A DNA stretch of 64,000 nt, taken from Stigmatella erecta (GTDB taxonomy: Bacteria; Myxococcota; Myxococcia; Myxococcales; Myxococcaceae). The notes under the pieces were generated by a model, which did no database searches, had not been told where the DNA came from, and saw nothing but the letters and a program-made list of their open reading frames with translations. The position numbers and the translations under genes are program-made. Numbering within the stretch: position 1 is the stretch's first letter; each line of letters begins with the position of its first letter. The stretch lies in NCBI RefSeq assembly GCF_900111745.1, contig NZ_FOIJ01000001.1, forward strand, positions 1,178,001 to 1,242,000, in the 5' to 3' direction. Shown piece after piece: positions 3,440 through 9,484 of the stretch.

Positions 3440-5130
3440 GCACCGCTCCAGCCTCCTCCGCCGCACCGCCGCCCCGGCCCCCGGGCCGAAAGATGGTGTC
3501 CTGGTTGGATCCCCTCCTCCTCGCGAAGACGAGCCTGAGGGCCACCATCTCCGCCACGATCGGGAAACAGGCCGACCGGCGGCTGCTCGACGCGTTGGCG
3601 GCTCCCGAGGTGAAGCCCTTCGACCTCTCCGTCGATGCAGCGGGCAACCCCCGGGAGGAGCTGTGGTTCGACTATGTCTCGGACCTGGGGGATGGCTGGG
3701 ACCCCACCTACGCGGTGGCCCAGGCGGTCTCCCGGCCCACCCTGCCGGTACGGGACGCGTCAGGAACCACCTACGAGACGCGCGGCGGCGAGCTGCTCGT
3801 GTTCGGTGGAGACGAGGTGTACCCGGCCGCCAGCGTGGCGGAGTACGAGGAGCGAACCCTCCACCCCTGGATCTGTGCCATCCGTGGGCAGCGGCCGCCC
3901 CCTCACCTGTTCGCCGTCCCGGGAAACCATGACTGGTACGATGGGCTCGTTTCCTTCATGCGCCTGTTCTGCCAGGGCCGCACCCTCGACGGGTTCAAGA
4001 CCCACCAGCGGCGCAGCTACTTCTCCGTGAAGTTGCCCCAGGGGTGGTGGCTGCTCGGCGTGGACATGCAGCTCGAGTCGGACATCGATCGGCCTCAGGT
4101 CTCCTACTTCGAGAAGCTCGCGAAGCAGATGCATGAAGACGACCGCATCATCCTGTGCCTGGCGGAGCCCGCCTGGCTGGCCTCCCAGGGCCACTCCCAG
4201 GAGAGCCGCTTCCGCTTGGAGAACAACCTCCGCTACCTCGAGAAGCACGTGCTGGGAAAGAAGGTCAGCATCTTCCTCGCGGGAGATATCCACCATTACC
4301 ACCGCCACGCCAACGCGGAGGGCCGGCAGAAGATCGTTGCCGGCGGGGGCGGTGCCTTCCTGCACCCGACCCACGCGTACCCGGAGGAGGCCACCCCCCA
4401 GGAGGGCTTCACCCCGCGCAAGAGCTTCCCGAGCCCCCGGGAGTCCCGGCGGCTGTGCTGGCGCAACCTCGGGCTCGCGGCCACCAGTCCCCGGTTTGGG
4501 GTGCTCACCGGCCTGCTCTATCTGCTCTTGGCCTGGGCGCTCCCAGTGAACCTCGGCAGTGCGAACGTGGCGCAGTCCCTGGGGCTCGTGGCGCTCACGC
4601 TGCTCTCCAGCCCCGGGCTCGTGCTCATCACCGTGCTCGCCCTCCTGGGCTTGATCGGTTTCGCGGACCAACGCTTTGGCCGCTGGCGCTGGGCCGCCGG
4701 GGGACTGCACGGCCTGGCGCACCTGGCCGCGGTGTTTCTGCTCGCCCTGGGCGTGGCGCACCTGATGGGCTCCGTCCTGCATCTGCCCTTCCGGAGCCCA
4801 GGAAGGGACTTGCTCAGCGCAGGGTTGTTCTTCGCGGGCGGCTTCCTGGCCGGACCGACGATCATGGGGCTCTACCTGCTCCTCTCGCTCAACGTCTTCG
4901 GTGTCCACGCGAACGAGGCGTTTTCCTCCCTGGCGATCCCGGACTGGAAGAACTTCATCCGGCTGCACATCGGCAAGAACGGGGAGCTGCGCCTCTTTCC
5001 CATCGGCATCCGGCGCGTGCCCCGGGCCTGGAAGCCGGGGGCGACCGTTCGCGAGCCGGCGTGGGTCGCGGATCCCCAGGATCGGCGGGCCACGCCCCCA
5101 GCGCTCATCGAGCCCCCCATCGTCCTGTGA
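3418..5130 (+). CDS. Calcineurin-like metallophosphoesterase with C-terminal membrane domain
   Basis: 570 aa. Metallophosphoesterase motifs appear in order: DLGDGW (Asp89, Asp92), GGDEVYP (Asp132), GNHD (169-172) and AGDIHHYHRH (289-298). These are the di-metal ligands and general acid of the fold. Residues about 360-497 contain several hydrophobic segments predicted as membrane helices, followed by a soluble tail. The catalytic domain would sit on the cytoplasmic face unless the topology is unusual. A strong GAAGGA ribosome site precedes the ATG inside the end of the GMC gene. Substrate unknown. It converges on the radical SAM gene with 17 bases between the stops. Confidence 0.85.
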   Translation: MASHAHVSTAPASSAAPPPRPPGRKMVSWLDPLLLAKTSLRATISATIGKQADRRLLDALAAPEVKPFDLSVDAAGNPREELWFDYVSDLGDGWDPTYAVAQAVSRPTLPVRDASGTTYETRGGELLVFGGDEVYPAASVAEYEERTLHPWICAIRGQRPPPHLFAVPGNHDWYDGLVSFMRLFCQGRTLDGFKTHQRRSYFSVKLPQGWWLLGVDMQLESDIDRPQVSYFEKLAKQMHEDDRIILCLAEPAWLASQGHSQESRFRLENNLRYLEKHVLGKKVSIFLAGDIHHYHRHANAEGRQKIVAGGGGAFLHPTHAYPEEATPQEGFTPRKSFPSPRESRRLCWRNLGLAATSPRFGVLTGLLYLLLAWALPVNLGSANVAQSLGLVALTLLSSPGLVLITVLALLGLIGFADQRFGRWRWAAGGLHGLAHLAAVFLLALGVAHLMGSVLHLPFRSPGRDLLSAGLFFAGGFLAGPTIMGLYLLLSLNVFGVHANEAFSSLAIPDWKNFIRLHIGKNGELRLFPIGIRRVPRAWKPGATVREPAWVADPQDRRATPPALIEPPIVL

Positions 5131-5147
5131 CGCCGCTGGCGGGCAGC

Positions 5148-6239
5148 TCAGCGGGTCATGTCGAGCTGGCCGTCAGAGGCCCCGCGCCGCAACCGCGAGG
5201 GCGCATACCGCTCATCCAGCCAGGCACTCTGGACCACCTCGGCGACGATCTCCTTGTAATGCTCGCGGATGACCCGTGCGATGCGCGGATCCCGGTAGAG
5301 CATCTGACACGCCTGGCAGTGGTGGCCGAAGCGGCCTTCCCACTGGATGGAGGGGTCCCGCTCGGCGGCCCAGGCCAGGATCTTCTCGGGCCCCTTGTAG
5401 CGGATCCACAGCTTCAGGAAGTCGTTCTCCGCGGCTTCGATGGCCTCCCTCAGGAACGCGCTGCCTTCCTGGGCCGTGGCCACGTTCAGCTCGGGGATGA
5501 CGCGAAGCCCCAGGCCGCAGCAGGAGCCAATCCGGCCATCGGACTGCAGGGTATAGGTCTGCAAGACGCTGTCACAACCGGTCCGGCTGGGAAGGTTGGC
5601 CGCGGTCACGGCGACGTGGTCCGGGTAGCGTTGCGTCTCGCCAGGTGACAGCGGCATCCAGGGGCTCTCGATCACCCGGAGGCACTCCCGCAGCTCCGGG
5701 GCCAGCGCGGCGATAGCGGGTTGTCCGAGGAGCAGCTCCCGGGTGACGCGGCGCTCGGCTCGGAGCTCGACCATGATATGCGTGGGGAGATGCCGCTCGG
5801 CGGCGGCCACCGTGGCGTGGACCACCCGTTCCAGGGGAATGAAGCGCACGTGCTCATCCCCCGTGCTGTAGTTGATCTCCGACAGGCCCGCGTCCATGAG
5901 CCGGGCGATCTTCTCGTGAGCGGCCTCCCGGGAGTGGGCCCAGTGCGCGTTGGTGACAATGCGCGTGGGAAACCCGAGCGAGTCCGCTTCGCGGATGGCG
6001 GCCAGCAGATCATCCCACCGCAAGGTCGCCTCCCCTCCGGTGAAGACCACGTTGTAAAAGCCCAGCTCCTTCGCCTGGTGGATGGCATCGAGGATGGTGC
6101 TCAGCGCCAACCGGGTCCGATCCTTCGGGCTGCTGAGCGTTCCACAATCCTTGCACGCGGCGGGACACGTGAAGGTGGGCATGATGGACAGGGTCTTGCG
6201 CCCTTGAAACAACCCGGCCGCCAGTGGGGACGTGTGCAT
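5148..6239 (-). CDS. Radical SAM enzyme
   Basis: 363 aa. Cys25, Cys29 and Cys32 (CPAACKDC) form the CX3CX2C motif that binds the radical-SAM [4Fe-4S] cluster. The FTGGEATLRW stretch is the SAM-contacting GGE motif of the TIM-barrel. Further Cys occur near GSCCGLGL and HHCQACQM, possibly for an auxiliary cluster, but they are too few for a clear SPASM domain. The start has a GAGG ribosome site and lies 7 bases after the stop of the 229-aa upstream gene, so the two are co-transcribed. The reaction is not predictable. Peptide modification is plausible from the pairing; a tRNA- or cofactor-modifying role is the alternative. Confidence 0.8.
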   Translation of the reverse strand: MHTSPLAAGLFQGRKTLSIMPTFTCPAACKDCGTLSSPKDRTRLALSTILDAIHQAKELGFYNVVFTGGEATLRWDDLLAAIREADSLGFPTRIVTNAHWAHSREAAHEKIARLMDAGLSEINYSTGDEHVRFIPLERVVHATVAAAERHLPTHIMVELRAERRVTRELLLGQPAIAALAPELRECLRVIESPWMPLSPGETQRYPDHVAVTAANLPSRTGCDSVLQTYTLQSDGRIGSCCGLGLRVIPELNVATAQEGSAFLREAIEAAENDFLKLWIRYKGPEKILAWAAERDPSIQWEGRFGHHCQACQMLYRDPRIARVIREHYKEIVAEVVQSAWLDERYAPSRLRRGASDGQLDMTR

Positions 6240-6246
6240 GAGGTCC

Positions 6247-6936
6247 TCACCGGATCCGGGCGGAGAGATCGGCCAGCGTTCCCGCGTCCTTCAGCTCCTG
6301 GGCACGGGCGAGCAGCTGCTCGGAGAGGGAGCGCAGGATGGCGGGGTTGATGAGCTGGCCCAGATCGCCAAAGCCCAGACCGTTGAAGTTCTGGCTGGAC
6401 CTCAGGGTCTGGTCGCTGGTGCTCGGCGAGTTGACAGGCGTGGCGACGGCCGTTCCCGCCGCGTTGTTGATGAGGATTTGCTGGGCACGGTCTCCCATGC
6501 CCGGAATGCCGAAGCCCAGGCTCGCATTGCTCACCACGCTCAGCAGCAGCTCGTGGTCTCCGAACTCCAGGAGCGCCTTGGCGAAGTCCTGGTTGAACTC
6601 ATCCTTGCCGACCCGCTGCCCCTGGTGCTCGCTCGCGTACTGATCCATCCAGCGGAGGAACTGCTTGTTGGCGAGCACCGAGAAGAGCAGGCGGTTCGCC
6701 TCGGAGGCGCGCTGCGGTGGCAACTTCTCCTGGAAGACCCGGTCCATGATGATGCCAGAAGGGTCCTGGATGAAGCGCTGCTGGGCCTTCTCATCCGTGT
6801 CGAGTTCCTGGAAGAGCGCCGCCATGCTCTGACGGAACTCCTTGCGGCTCAAAACCAGGGGTGGCTTCGAGGGTTCGCTGAGACCGGATTTCGTGGAGGG
6901 GAGGACACGTCGGGTCTGGGTGCTCTTGGTGGCCAT
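6247..6936 (-). CDS. Unrecognised 229-aa protein paired with the radical SAM enzyme (candidate peptide substrate)
   Basis: No family recognised. The N-terminal 30 residues are basic and Ser/Thr/Pro-rich. Residues about 30-130 are helical and charged, with an acidic FRQSMAALFQELDTDEKAQQ segment followed by FIQDPSGI, reminiscent of the leader regions of Nif11/NHLP-type RiPP precursors. Residues about 135-195 are Gly/Asn/Ser-rich (GLGFGIPGMGD, FNGLGFGDLGQ), and the tail is helical. There is no signal peptide, Cys or TM segment. It is much longer than most RiPP precursors, so it may instead be a structural or partner protein. A GAGAGAAG ribosome site precedes the ATG. It heads a two-gene operon with the radical SAM gene. 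Confidence 0.55.
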   Translation of the reverse strand: MATKSTQTRRVLPSTKSGLSEPSKPPLVLSRKEFRQSMAALFQELDTDEKAQQRFIQDPSGIIMDRVFQEKLPPQRASEANRLLFSVLANKQFLRWMDQYASEHQGQRVGKDEFNQDFAKALLEFGDHELLLSVVSNASLGFGIPGMGDRAQQILINNAAGTAVATPVNSPSTSDQTLRSSQNFNGLGFGDLGQLINPAILRSLSEQLLARAQELKDAGTLADLSARIR

Positions 6937-7075
6937 GGGGCTTCTCTCGGAAGCAAGTGGGTAATCCCACTTCAGTCAGAGGACGCGGCAACGTCTTGTG
7001 ACGGAGTGACCCGGACGCGCCCCTGTGAGCCCCACGCCCCGCCTGCAACCGGCCGCGGCGCTGAGAAAGCCCGCC

Positions 7076-7564
7076 TTACGGGGCGGAAGGCACCGGCGCT
7101 GGCTCCGCCGCACCGGCGGGCGGCGCGTACCCCTGGGGAGCCGACGGTTGCGGCATGAAGTCCTGCTGCTGCCCGCGAGACTCCGGGACACAGGTGTACT
7201 TCACCGTGCGCGAGCCGAGCAGAAAGGGAATGAGGGTGGCGCCGGTCGCCGCGCAGGAAGACACCCGCTCATCGGATTCGTCCTTGCAGATCGCCGCGCC
7301 CGCGAAGGCCCCCGCGACCCCCAGCCCGATGTTGATGAGCCAGTCCGTGCCGCTCAGCTCGCTGTCCGCCCGGGCCAGGCCGTTGGGGCACTCGCCTCCC
7401 GCGGGGGACGACAGCGGCACCAGGCCCGCGATGGTGAACCACTGGCGGTCCGAGTACTCCCGGCCCCCCGGCGCGCGATCCGTGACGATGCTCGTGTGGT
7501 AACACCCCGCCTGGCTCATCAGCACTGCCCCGGCGACCGCCACCGCTCCAAACCGTTTCAACAT
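7076..7564 (-). CDS. Bor-like lipoprotein
   Basis: 162 aa. The N-terminus is a lipoprotein signal with the modified Cys at about residue 21 (SQAGCYHTS). The following region (WFTIAGLVPLSS, a conserved Cys, a hydrophobic GLGVAGAFAG segment) resembles the Bor family of outer-membrane lipoproteins. The tail beyond about residue 130 is Pro/Ala/Gln-rich. Bor of phage lambda is a surface serum-resistance lipoprotein; in free-living bacteria the role is unknown. Four Cys after the lipobox could form disulfides. It stands alone, transcribed away from the GMC gene at 7847 across a 282-base intergenic region. Confidence 0.55.
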   Translation of the reverse strand: MLKRFGAVAVAGAVLMSQAGCYHTSIVTDRAPGGREYSDRQWFTIAGLVPLSSPAGGECPNGLARADSELSGTDWLINIGLGVAGAFAGAAICKDESDERVSSCAATGATLIPFLLGSRTVKYTCVPESRGQQQDFMPQPSAPQGYAPPAGAAEPAPVPSAP

Positions 7565-7846
7565 GAGTCCCTCTCCCGAAGTGAGCCTGGGCAGCCGCGC
7601 CCGGCATGTCCGCGCACGGACCGGGAGAATCCGCGTCTGTCCGCGCTCTCCCTCAATTAGGGCTTAGCGAATCCCCTTCGGGGAAGCCATACTCCTTTTG
7701 CGGCACCCCGCGTCCCGTGGGGGGCTGCCCGCGGGAACGCTGACCTTCCGGCAGCAACACGGCGCGTCAACAGCAGCCGCTGGGGAAACCCACCGCTCCC
7801 CACCCCGTAGCGCCCCCTGAATTCCAGTCCGTTCACGCGAGCCCCC

Positions 7847-9484
7847 ATGACCCAGAAGCCCTCCTCCGGACGTCCCCACAAGGACCGCCTCCTCCAGCAG
7901 CTCCAGCAAGGAACCCTCTCCCGCCGCGGCTTCCTGACGCTGCTCGGCCTGTCGGCCACCACCGTGGGAACCCAGACCCTGTTCGGCTGTGGGGATGCCT
8001 CCTCCGAGTACGACTACATCATCGTGGGCGCGGGCTCGGCGGGGTGTACCCTGGCGGCCCGGCTGCTCACGGACTCGGATGCGCGCGTGCTGCTGATCGA
8101 AGCCGGGGGCACGCAGGACCGGGAAGAGATCCGCGACTTCAGCCAGTCCTGGAAGCTGACGCAGCCCGGCTCCGAGACCGACTGGGGCTACAAGTCCGTG
8201 CCCCAGCCCACGCTGCTGGACAAGGTCCAGTCCTACTCCTGCGGCAAGGTGCTGGGGGGCAGCAGCTCCATCAACGGCATGGTCTGGGTGAAGGGCAATC
8301 CGGCCGACTTCGATGGCTGGGCCGCGGCCGGATGCCCGGGGTGGGACGCCCGCAGCGTTCAGCCCTCGTTCCAGACCTTGAGCCAGGCGATTCAGCCGTC
8401 CGCCGCGCTCACGTCGCGCAACGCGCTGGCCCAGGCGGTCTTCGAGGCCGCCGCCGGGCTCGGCCATGCCCGCAACACGGACTACAACGGCGAGAGCCAG
8501 CGGGGCGTGAGCTACACCCAGCTCAATGTGTGGGAAGACGGCCGGCGCCAGGACGCCTTCACCGCCTTCGTGGCGCCGCACGCGGACAACCCCCGGCTGA
8601 GCCTCCTGACCGGGGCCCGGGTCAAGCGCATCTCCGTGCGGGGAAAGAAGGCGGACGGCGTCATCCTGGACCAGGACGGCGCGGAGCAGACGCTGACGGC
8701 GAACCGGGAAGTCATCATCTGCGCGGGTACCGTGCACACCCCCCACCTGCTGATGCTCTCGGGGATTGGCGCTCCGGCGGACCTGGAGCCCCATGGCATT
8801 CCCGTGGTGGCGGCGGTGCCGGGCGTGGGACAGAACCTGCACGATCACCTCATCTCGGTGGCGGCCCGGAAGCTGCGGCAGCCCGAGCCGGCCTCTCACA
8901 TCACCGCGATGGACGTGAACGTCTTCTTCGGCGAGGGGCCCCGGCCTGGCATGCCGAGGTTCCAGGCGCAGGCCTATTACATGCGCTACGGCTGGGGCAC
9001 GTACCCCTCCGAGGCGGTGGCCTTCGGCCTCATCCACCTGCACCCGACGAGCCGGGGCACCGTGAAGCTGCGCTCGGCGGACTTCCGGGACGCGCCGCTC
9101 ATCGATCCGGCCCTGCTCTCCACGGAGGAGGACCTGGCCCATCAGCTCGAAGGCTACAAGGCCATCCGGGGCATGCTCGCCGCGCCCGGCCTGCGCGACT
9201 GGGTGGAGGACGTGGAACACACCCCCGGGCCGGACGTCTCCACGGACGAGCAGCTGCTGGCCGCCCTGCGCCAGCACTCCGAGAGCGACTTCCATCCGGT
9301 GGGCACGTGCCGCATGGGCCAGGATGACCTGGCGGTGGTGGATCCCCAGCTCCGGGTGAAGGGCCTGGAGGGGCTGCGGCTGGCGAGCGCCGCCATCATG
9401 CCCACCGTCCCCTCGGGCAACACCAACGCGCCCAGCATGATGGTGGGCGACCACGCGGGCCGGCGGATCCTCGGGCGCGGCTGA
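7847..9484 (+). CDS. Exported GMC oxidoreductase (choline-dehydrogenase-like)
   Basis: 545 aa. A twin-arginine-type signal with LSRRGFLTLLGLSA is followed by a Cys-containing segment (LFGCGDAS), so the enzyme may be exported folded with FAD and possibly lipid-anchored. Motifs: GAGSAGC dinucleotide loop at about residue 65, GGSSSINGMVW signature, FHPVGTCRMG (His483) and SGNTNAPSMM (catalytic-type Asn near 527). Family members oxidise alcohols such as choline, polyethylene glycol or benzyl alcohols; the substrate here is open. It lacks the CX2CX2CX3C motif of the 1667 gene, so it belongs to a different GMC subgroup. Start chosen to include the Tat signal; the ribosome site is weak. Confidence 0.85.
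   Translation: MTQKPSSGRPHKDRLLQQLQQGTLSRRGFLTLLGLSATTVGTQTLFGCGDASSEYDYIIVGAGSAGCTLAARLLTDSDARVLLIEAGGTQDREEIRDFSQSWKLTQPGSETDWGYKSVPQPTLLDKVQSYSCGKVLGGSSSINGMVWVKGNPADFDGWAAAGCPGWDARSVQPSFQTLSQAIQPSAALTSRNALAQAVFEAAAGLGHARNTDYNGESQRGVSYTQLNVWEDGRRQDAFTAFVAPHADNPRLSLLTGARVKRISVRGKKADGVILDQDGAEQTLTANREVIICAGTVHTPHLLMLSGIGAPADLEPHGIPVVAAVPGVGQNLHDHLISVAARKLRQPEPASHITAMDVNVFFGEGPRPGMPRFQAQAYYMRYGWGTYPSEAVAFGLIHLHPTSRGTVKLRSADFRDAPLIDPALLSTEEDLAHQLEGYKAIRGMLAAPGLRDWVEDVEHTPGPDVSTDEQLLAALRQHSESDFHPVGTCRMGQDDLAVVDPQLRVKGLEGLRLASAAIMPTVPSGNTNAPSMMVGDHAGRRILGRG

Follow-up and report, generated by a model that had tools for sequence, protein, structure and literature searches.

A Stigmatella erecta gene pair encoding an EpeE-like radical SAM enzyme and its putative large precursor

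The gene pair and its distribution

The window analyzed here is a 64,000-nucleotide stretch of DNA from the myxobacterium Stigmatella erecta (contig NZ_FOIJ01000001.1, positions 1,178,001 to 1,242,000), and it contains two adjacent genes on its minus strand, to which all window coordinates below refer. One encodes a 229-amino-acid (aa) protein (6247..6936, stop codon included) that is the putative precursor, or substrate, of a 363-aa radical S-adenosylmethionine (SAM) enzyme resembling EpeE (also called YydG), encoded by the other (5148..6239). An initial annotation of the sequence had described the two as adjacent genes with a 7-base gap, which the open reading frames bear out. Orthologues in a congener are 88% (partner) and 94% (enzyme) identical, and the ratio of nonsynonymous to synonymous substitution rates (dN/dS) between window and congener was 0.44 (partner) and 0.16 (enzyme), indicating that both are functional genes under purifying selection. 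Since they are kept in the congener, appear to be under purifying selection and have orthologous pairs in other phyla, we regard both genes as real. The pair is present as a single copy in its own genome, which contains no partner of the distant type described below. A scan of the locus for sigma-70 promoters and terminators gave no match and was uninformative.

A scan of GTDB genomes for related enzymes yielded 45 loci. Near relatives, with enzymes 45-69% identical, were found in Cyanobacteria, Actinobacteria, Oxalobacteraceae/Burkholderiaceae, Bacteroidetes and Ignavibacteriae, and in every member of this near clade the partner gene lies directly upstream of the enzyme gene on the same strand. 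Searches with the enzyme alone identified 12 near genome loci, and at each of them, as in the congener, the partner adjoins the enzyme. At L015 the partner is shortened. The distance from partner end to enzyme start ranged from -26 to +161 nt and was mostly negative, with overlapping ends. Conversely, when only the partner was used to search 201 actinobacterial genomes, six new loci emerged, four of which had the enzyme adjoining. In all, pairs of this type, whose partner has a middle segment that can be exchanged, are present in at least six bacterial phyla. The initial annotation had proposed looking for homologous pairs in other myxobacteria and had named a lack of conservation as the result that would speak against its proposal; the pair proved to be conserved across phyla but is not a general myxobacterial trait, the partner being present in 2 of 96 same-family genomes and, within the phylum, 5 of 195 genomes having relatives of the enzyme. 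The cyanobacterial locus had no relatives in 292 other genomes of its order.

In congeners without the pair, the flanking phosphoesterase has different neighbors; one such congener has the oxidoreductase from the opposite flank on a separate contig. Comparison of these flanks recovered no clean empty site in the congeners, other genes being found at the pair's place. Because the congener flanks differ and the nearest enzyme outside the genus in the enzyme tree is cyanobacterial, these comparisons point to acquisition of the pair by horizontal transfer. A 157-aa remnant of the window enzyme type was observed in a different genus of this family (L007, 1354-1827); its C-terminus is 63% identical, but it carries an internal deletion and has lost the cluster cysteines. 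Its sequence marks it as a decayed copy and indicates that the system also undergoes loss.

The radical SAM enzyme

The 363-aa protein matched the Pfam Radical_SAM family (PF04055) at 8.5e-9, above the cut-off, and its best match among families was TIGR04078, the YydG epimerase, which was also the best family by E-value in 25 of 25 relatives scanned. When a profile built from 25 enzyme relatives was searched against the Protein Data Bank (PDB), EpeE/YydG was the sole family below 1e-5, at an E-value of 1.1e-23. The AlphaFold model of the enzyme had a mean predicted local distance difference test (pLDDT) score of 90.5, and its best structural match was again EpeE, with a Z score of 27.0 over 311 residues versus 18.2 for the next enzyme. 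No SPASM domain was matched in the enzyme by Pfam.

Cysteines C25, C29, C32, C222, C240, C241, C308 and C311 were invariant in all 25 relatives. The first three form the CxxxCxxC radical SAM cluster motif (C25-x3-C29-x2-C32; 6144..6167). In the C240-C241 pair (5517..5522), the profile alignment places C241 on EpeE Cys223, the residue proposed to return the hydrogen atom (PMC8326336). C222 (5574..5576), which aligns with EpeE C206, and the C308-x2-C311 pair (5307..5318) are probable ligands of auxiliary clusters, as judged by conservation and profile alignment. C240 counts with these three among the candidate second-cluster cysteines. The comparisons of sequence and modeled fold reasonably support an EpeE (YydG)-type radical SAM peptide epimerase, with the reaction predicted by homology.

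The partner protein and its relatives

The initial annotation had found no recognized domain in the 229-aa protein, and we reached the same result: Pfam returned only noise up to an E-value of 10, and NCBIfam only a meaningless match at 0.02. A fold search with the AlphaFold2 model of the partner gave nothing below an E-value of 1, the model being too uncertain to judge. The protein begins with a disordered tail (residues 1-30; 6847..6936; pLDDT <50), which is its fastest-changing part (dN 0.15 versus the congener). This is followed by a helical, leader-like domain (residues 31-142; 6511..6846), modeled as helices at a pLDDT of about 70 and alignable in all near partners. It includes the FIQDPSG element (residues 55-61; 6754..6774) noted in the initial annotation, in which F55 and P59 are invariant in 14 of 14 sequences. 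The putative core (approximately residues 143-197; 6346..6510), which contains ILINNAAGTAVATPVNSPSTSDQTLRSSQNFNGLGFGDLGQ, is disordered in the model and replaced in other clades. Last comes a follower-like C-terminal helix (residues 198-229; 6250..6345), modeled with low confidence as a helix over residues 198-217, whose pattern is kept in the near partners. The putative core corresponds to the Gly/Asn/Ser-rich stretch that had been suggested as such, but the helix behind it had gone unmentioned. The window partner has neither a signal peptide nor a hydrophobic core.

Alignment of the near partners revealed that the flanks align throughout, whereas the middle segment does not. A core of the form NNAAGxAVATPV-SPSTS-SSQNF(N/D)G is shared by myxobacteria, one cyanobacterium and one actinomycete, the last having tandem partner copies with twin-arginine (Tat)-like signals. 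The core consists of (GTD)n repeats in Oxalobacteraceae, of a TDHK...STQNFE segment in two Streptosporangiaceae and of V/A-rich stretches in Bacteroidetes and Ignavibacteriae. Core type tracks the enzyme tree, requiring 6 changes for 7 types, a number as low as which was reached in 0 of 200 shuffles. Among partners with the window's core type, no region is as well conserved as the core: it is identical at 54 of 55 positions in the congener, with a low dN, at 40 of 55 in the cyanobacterial protein (leader, 48 of 112; Fisher p 3e-4) and at 32 of 55 in the actinomycete protein (leader, 38 of 112; p 0.004). Since it is better conserved than the leader within its type, the window-type core is strongly constrained and not diversifying. 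The variable C-terminus anticipated by the initial annotation was thus found only in part, as the middle is exchanged between clades but a conserved helix occupies the last 32 residues and the core is the best-kept region within the window type. Equal conservation along an unmodified protein, which the annotation had set against its own proposal, does not agree with a middle that is exchanged while the flanks stay.

Basal and distant relatives carry V/A-rich cores, and V and A are the residues epimerized in EpeE and proteusin substrates (PMC8326336, PMC9259500). The distant enzymes (30-41% identity) come from Photorhabdus, Vibrio, Shewanella, Sulfobacillus, Alicyclobacillus, Corallococcus and prophages, and they adjoin proteins of 200-390 aa in which an RLYGxPxSL motif and a helical region are accompanied by a V/A/N-rich core (TYVAVNVxAAxNV...) and by C-terminal helices; several have Tat signals. 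Direct comparison of near and distant partners with hhalign was weak (probability 23%, E-value 9e-4 across the leader), and a common origin of the two groups is therefore suggested mainly by homologous enzymes, position and layout. Among 16 distant partners, 8 matched the SdpC toxin family TIGR04032 weakly (best 8e-4, below the cut-off of 99.2), and 4 matched the IniB N-terminal domain (NF038175) in the leader (best 2.1e-6, below cut-off), which was matched by neither the window protein nor the near partners.

Several of these loci carry additional genes. Distant pairs are often followed by a small membrane protein of weak bacterial-PH similarity, which may be an immunity protein by analogy with SunI. 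At a Photorhabdus locus (L028, 7035-9201), the full V/A-rich precursor is followed by a second, truncated copy (135 aa) and then by a 164-aa membrane protein, which may likewise confer immunity. A myxobacterial locus (L009, 10193-10561) has an EpeE-like enzyme adjoined by an immunity gene of the SdpI family (8e-14), with no precursor recognized there, and a Bacteroidetes locus of the near clade (L020) has a DUF1648 gene downstream (6.5e-14). On prophage contigs from IMG/VR (L058, 3446-7042, and likewise L059-L062 and L064), a distant enzyme accompanies a V/A-rich partner with a Tat signal; the L058 pair lies downstream of a phage tail gene (phrog_52, 8e-147), in the manner of a cargo gene. Downstream of the Oxalobacteraceae pair come a 330-aa protein on which Pfam was silent, read by us from its HxD...H...R pattern as a putative 2-oxoglutarate-Fe(II) oxygenase, and an FkbM methyltransferase (PF05050). 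Epimerization, hydroxylation and FkbM methylation are combined in the ere proteusin pathway (PMC9259500). A cyanobacterial partner (L012, 1515-2444) bears an N-terminal transthyretin-like domain (PF01060, 3e-4, below cut-off) and has a Rieske oxygenase gene upstream. Two actinobacterial partner homologues lie without a nearby EpeE-like enzyme: one (L079, 5590-8613) has an FkbM-like protein downstream, and the other (L080, about 5100-9419) accompanies an oxygenase-like protein and a TIGR03913 radical SAM/SPASM maturase. Because these homologues have other enzymes, this leader type may serve several enzymes.

A proposed epimerization system

From the computed features of the locus (the gene pair, the family and fold of the enzyme, its conserved catalytic cysteines, the layout of the partner and the exchange of its core), we consider it fairly probable that the pair constitutes a minimal system similar to those of ribosomally synthesized and post-translationally modified peptides (RiPPs), in which an EpeE-type epimerase installs D-amino acids in the core of a large precursor. 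A ribosomal precursor with leader and core, encoded beside its modifying enzyme, is what the layout, core exchange and conserved adjacency describe. That the partner is the substrate of the enzyme is strongly supported, and the initial proposal of a radical SAM enzyme acting on a large substrate with leader and core gains good support from the cross-phylum pair, the EpeE-like enzyme and the exchanged middle. In the proposed mechanism, the helical leader-like domain and the C-terminal helix would hold the 229-aa substrate for the enzyme, and modification would fall in the disordered core. The first [4Fe-4S] cluster of the enzyme would cleave SAM, the resulting radical would abstract the alpha-hydrogen of a core residue, and Cys241 would donate a hydrogen from the opposite face to give the D-amino acid. 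The Ala, Val and Thr residues of AAGTAVATPV are the best candidates for the residues changed.

Several observations weigh against this proposal. The enzyme scores 47.8 bits (E-value 1.3e-12) against TIGR04078, short of the curated cut-off of 300 bits, and is only about 15% identical to EpeE, whose Asp210 (mutated in the solved structure 8ai6) aligns with Thr228 in the window enzyme. The partner was modeled with low confidence (pLDDT 52.6), and the window core is hydrophilic, unlike known epimerized cores. No protease, exporter or immunity gene adjoins the pair in the window, the first two of these absences having already been pointed out in the initial annotation, and the partner homologues at L071 and L072 have no EpeE-like enzyme nearby.

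It is possible, though rather unlikely, that the same enzyme and substrate undergo another radical reaction, such as a C-C or C-O cross-link at the phenylalanine of the conserved [S/T]QNF, dehydrogenation or backbone cleavage. The loss of Asp210 would suit such a reaction, the SSQNFNG / STQNFE motif is kept in the derived near clade even with an otherwise different core, and related folds include the cross-linking and dehydrogenating enzymes SuiB and SpeY. However, the epimerase is closest in sequence and fold by a wide margin, Cys241 (EpeE Cys223) is invariant, the SPASM domain is unmatched, and the V/A-rich cores of the relatives have no evident aromatic cross-linking pattern. We think it improbable that the partner is instead a structural or accessory protein, such as a chaperone or adaptor, with the enzyme acting on another target. 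Its length (229 aa, with relatives reaching about 390), folded helical domain, lack of adjacent genes for cleavage and export and the two homologues without the enzyme would accord with such a role, but wholesale exchange of the disordered middle between constant flanks, the V/A-rich peptide-like segments and Tat signals of the relatives and the low dN of the core all fit a substrate better. Thioether formation by a sactipeptide or ranthipeptide maturase, suggested by the weak resemblance, in NCBIfam, between the radical SAM core and sactipeptide maturases, can be excluded for the window because neither the partner nor its congener orthologue contains any cysteine. Chance proximity of unrelated genes, which might be read from the presence of the pair in just 2 of 96 same-family genomes, is refuted: in many genera of several phyla, amid unrelated flanks, the two genes recur side by side, in this order and mostly with overlapping ends.

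The proposed epimerase and precursor share features with several known systems. EpeX-EpeE (YydF-YydG) of Bacillus subtilis is alike in enzyme fold, radical SAM motif, auxiliary cysteines, the Cys223/Cys241 equivalence and the adjacency of precursor and enzyme genes. It differs in enzyme sequence, as the identity, TIGR04078 score and Asp210 indicate, in having a short secreted pre-peptide where the window has a 229-aa precursor with a helical leader domain and a C-terminal helix, and in the EpeP-like protease and ABC transporter that the window pair lacks next to it. Proteusins (PoyA-PoyD, EreA-EreD) likewise have a large leader and a separate core, and relatives of the window pair share with them V/A-rich cores and, in some operons, an FkbM methyltransferase (PMC9259500); in contrast, the window leader is not nitrile-hydratase-like, and a helix follows the core. 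No leader family, the NHLP type of proteusins included, was matched by the window protein or by the near partners of A3. The initial annotation had also likened the leader to those of the Nif11/NHLP type, with which it shares an F..DP..-type element in an acidic helical region. That assignment was rejected, as the window protein was unmatched in Pfam (E-value 10) and NCBIfam (E-value 1) and the cores and enzymes differ; relatives gave only weak matches, to the NHLP-related TIGR04509 (0.0035 for L079, 0.074 for A4) and to the IniB domain (2e-6). The SDP toxin SdpC with its immunity protein SdpI (TIGR04032, PF13630) resembles the distant partners in export signal, helical pro-region, hydrophobic core and C-terminal helices, whereas the window partner has no signal peptide, hydrophobic core or immunity neighbor and did not match TIGR04032 in NCBIfam. 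We know of no radical SAM enzyme for SdpC.

Upstream of the pair, on the same strand, the window encodes a 162-aa protein (7076-7564) with a lipoprotein-type N-terminus (VLMSQAGC) and no Pfam match. It stays beside the oxidoreductase in one congener without the pair and is therefore probably unrelated to it.

The pair matches no named family, and no account of it was found among open PMC papers in a literature check that was incomplete. For the V/A-rich relatives, a bacteriocin-like use is likeliest. We tentatively suggest, as a possibility short of an even chance, that these loci represent a widespread unnamed class in which an EpeE-type enzyme places D-residues inside leader/follower proteins of 200-390 aa, several of them Tat-exported, and which links SDP-type (SdpC) membrane toxins to D-amino-acid chemistry; the window branch would then have adapted the scaffold to a hydrophilic core that is new and strictly conserved, in a role other than that of a toxin. 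To our knowledge, radical SAM peptide epimerase systems of only two kinds, proteusins and epipeptides, have been widely described. If our interpretation is correct, the pair would represent a third epimerase architecture, in which precursors exceed epipeptides in size several-fold, a follower helix comes after the core, and cores are exchangeable among at least six phyla, prophages included. Since the enzyme family can be recognized and each enzyme lies beside its substrate, epimerization would be directly testable, and the SdpC/SdpI-like link makes the occurrence of D-amino acids in SDP-type toxins elsewhere a testable question.
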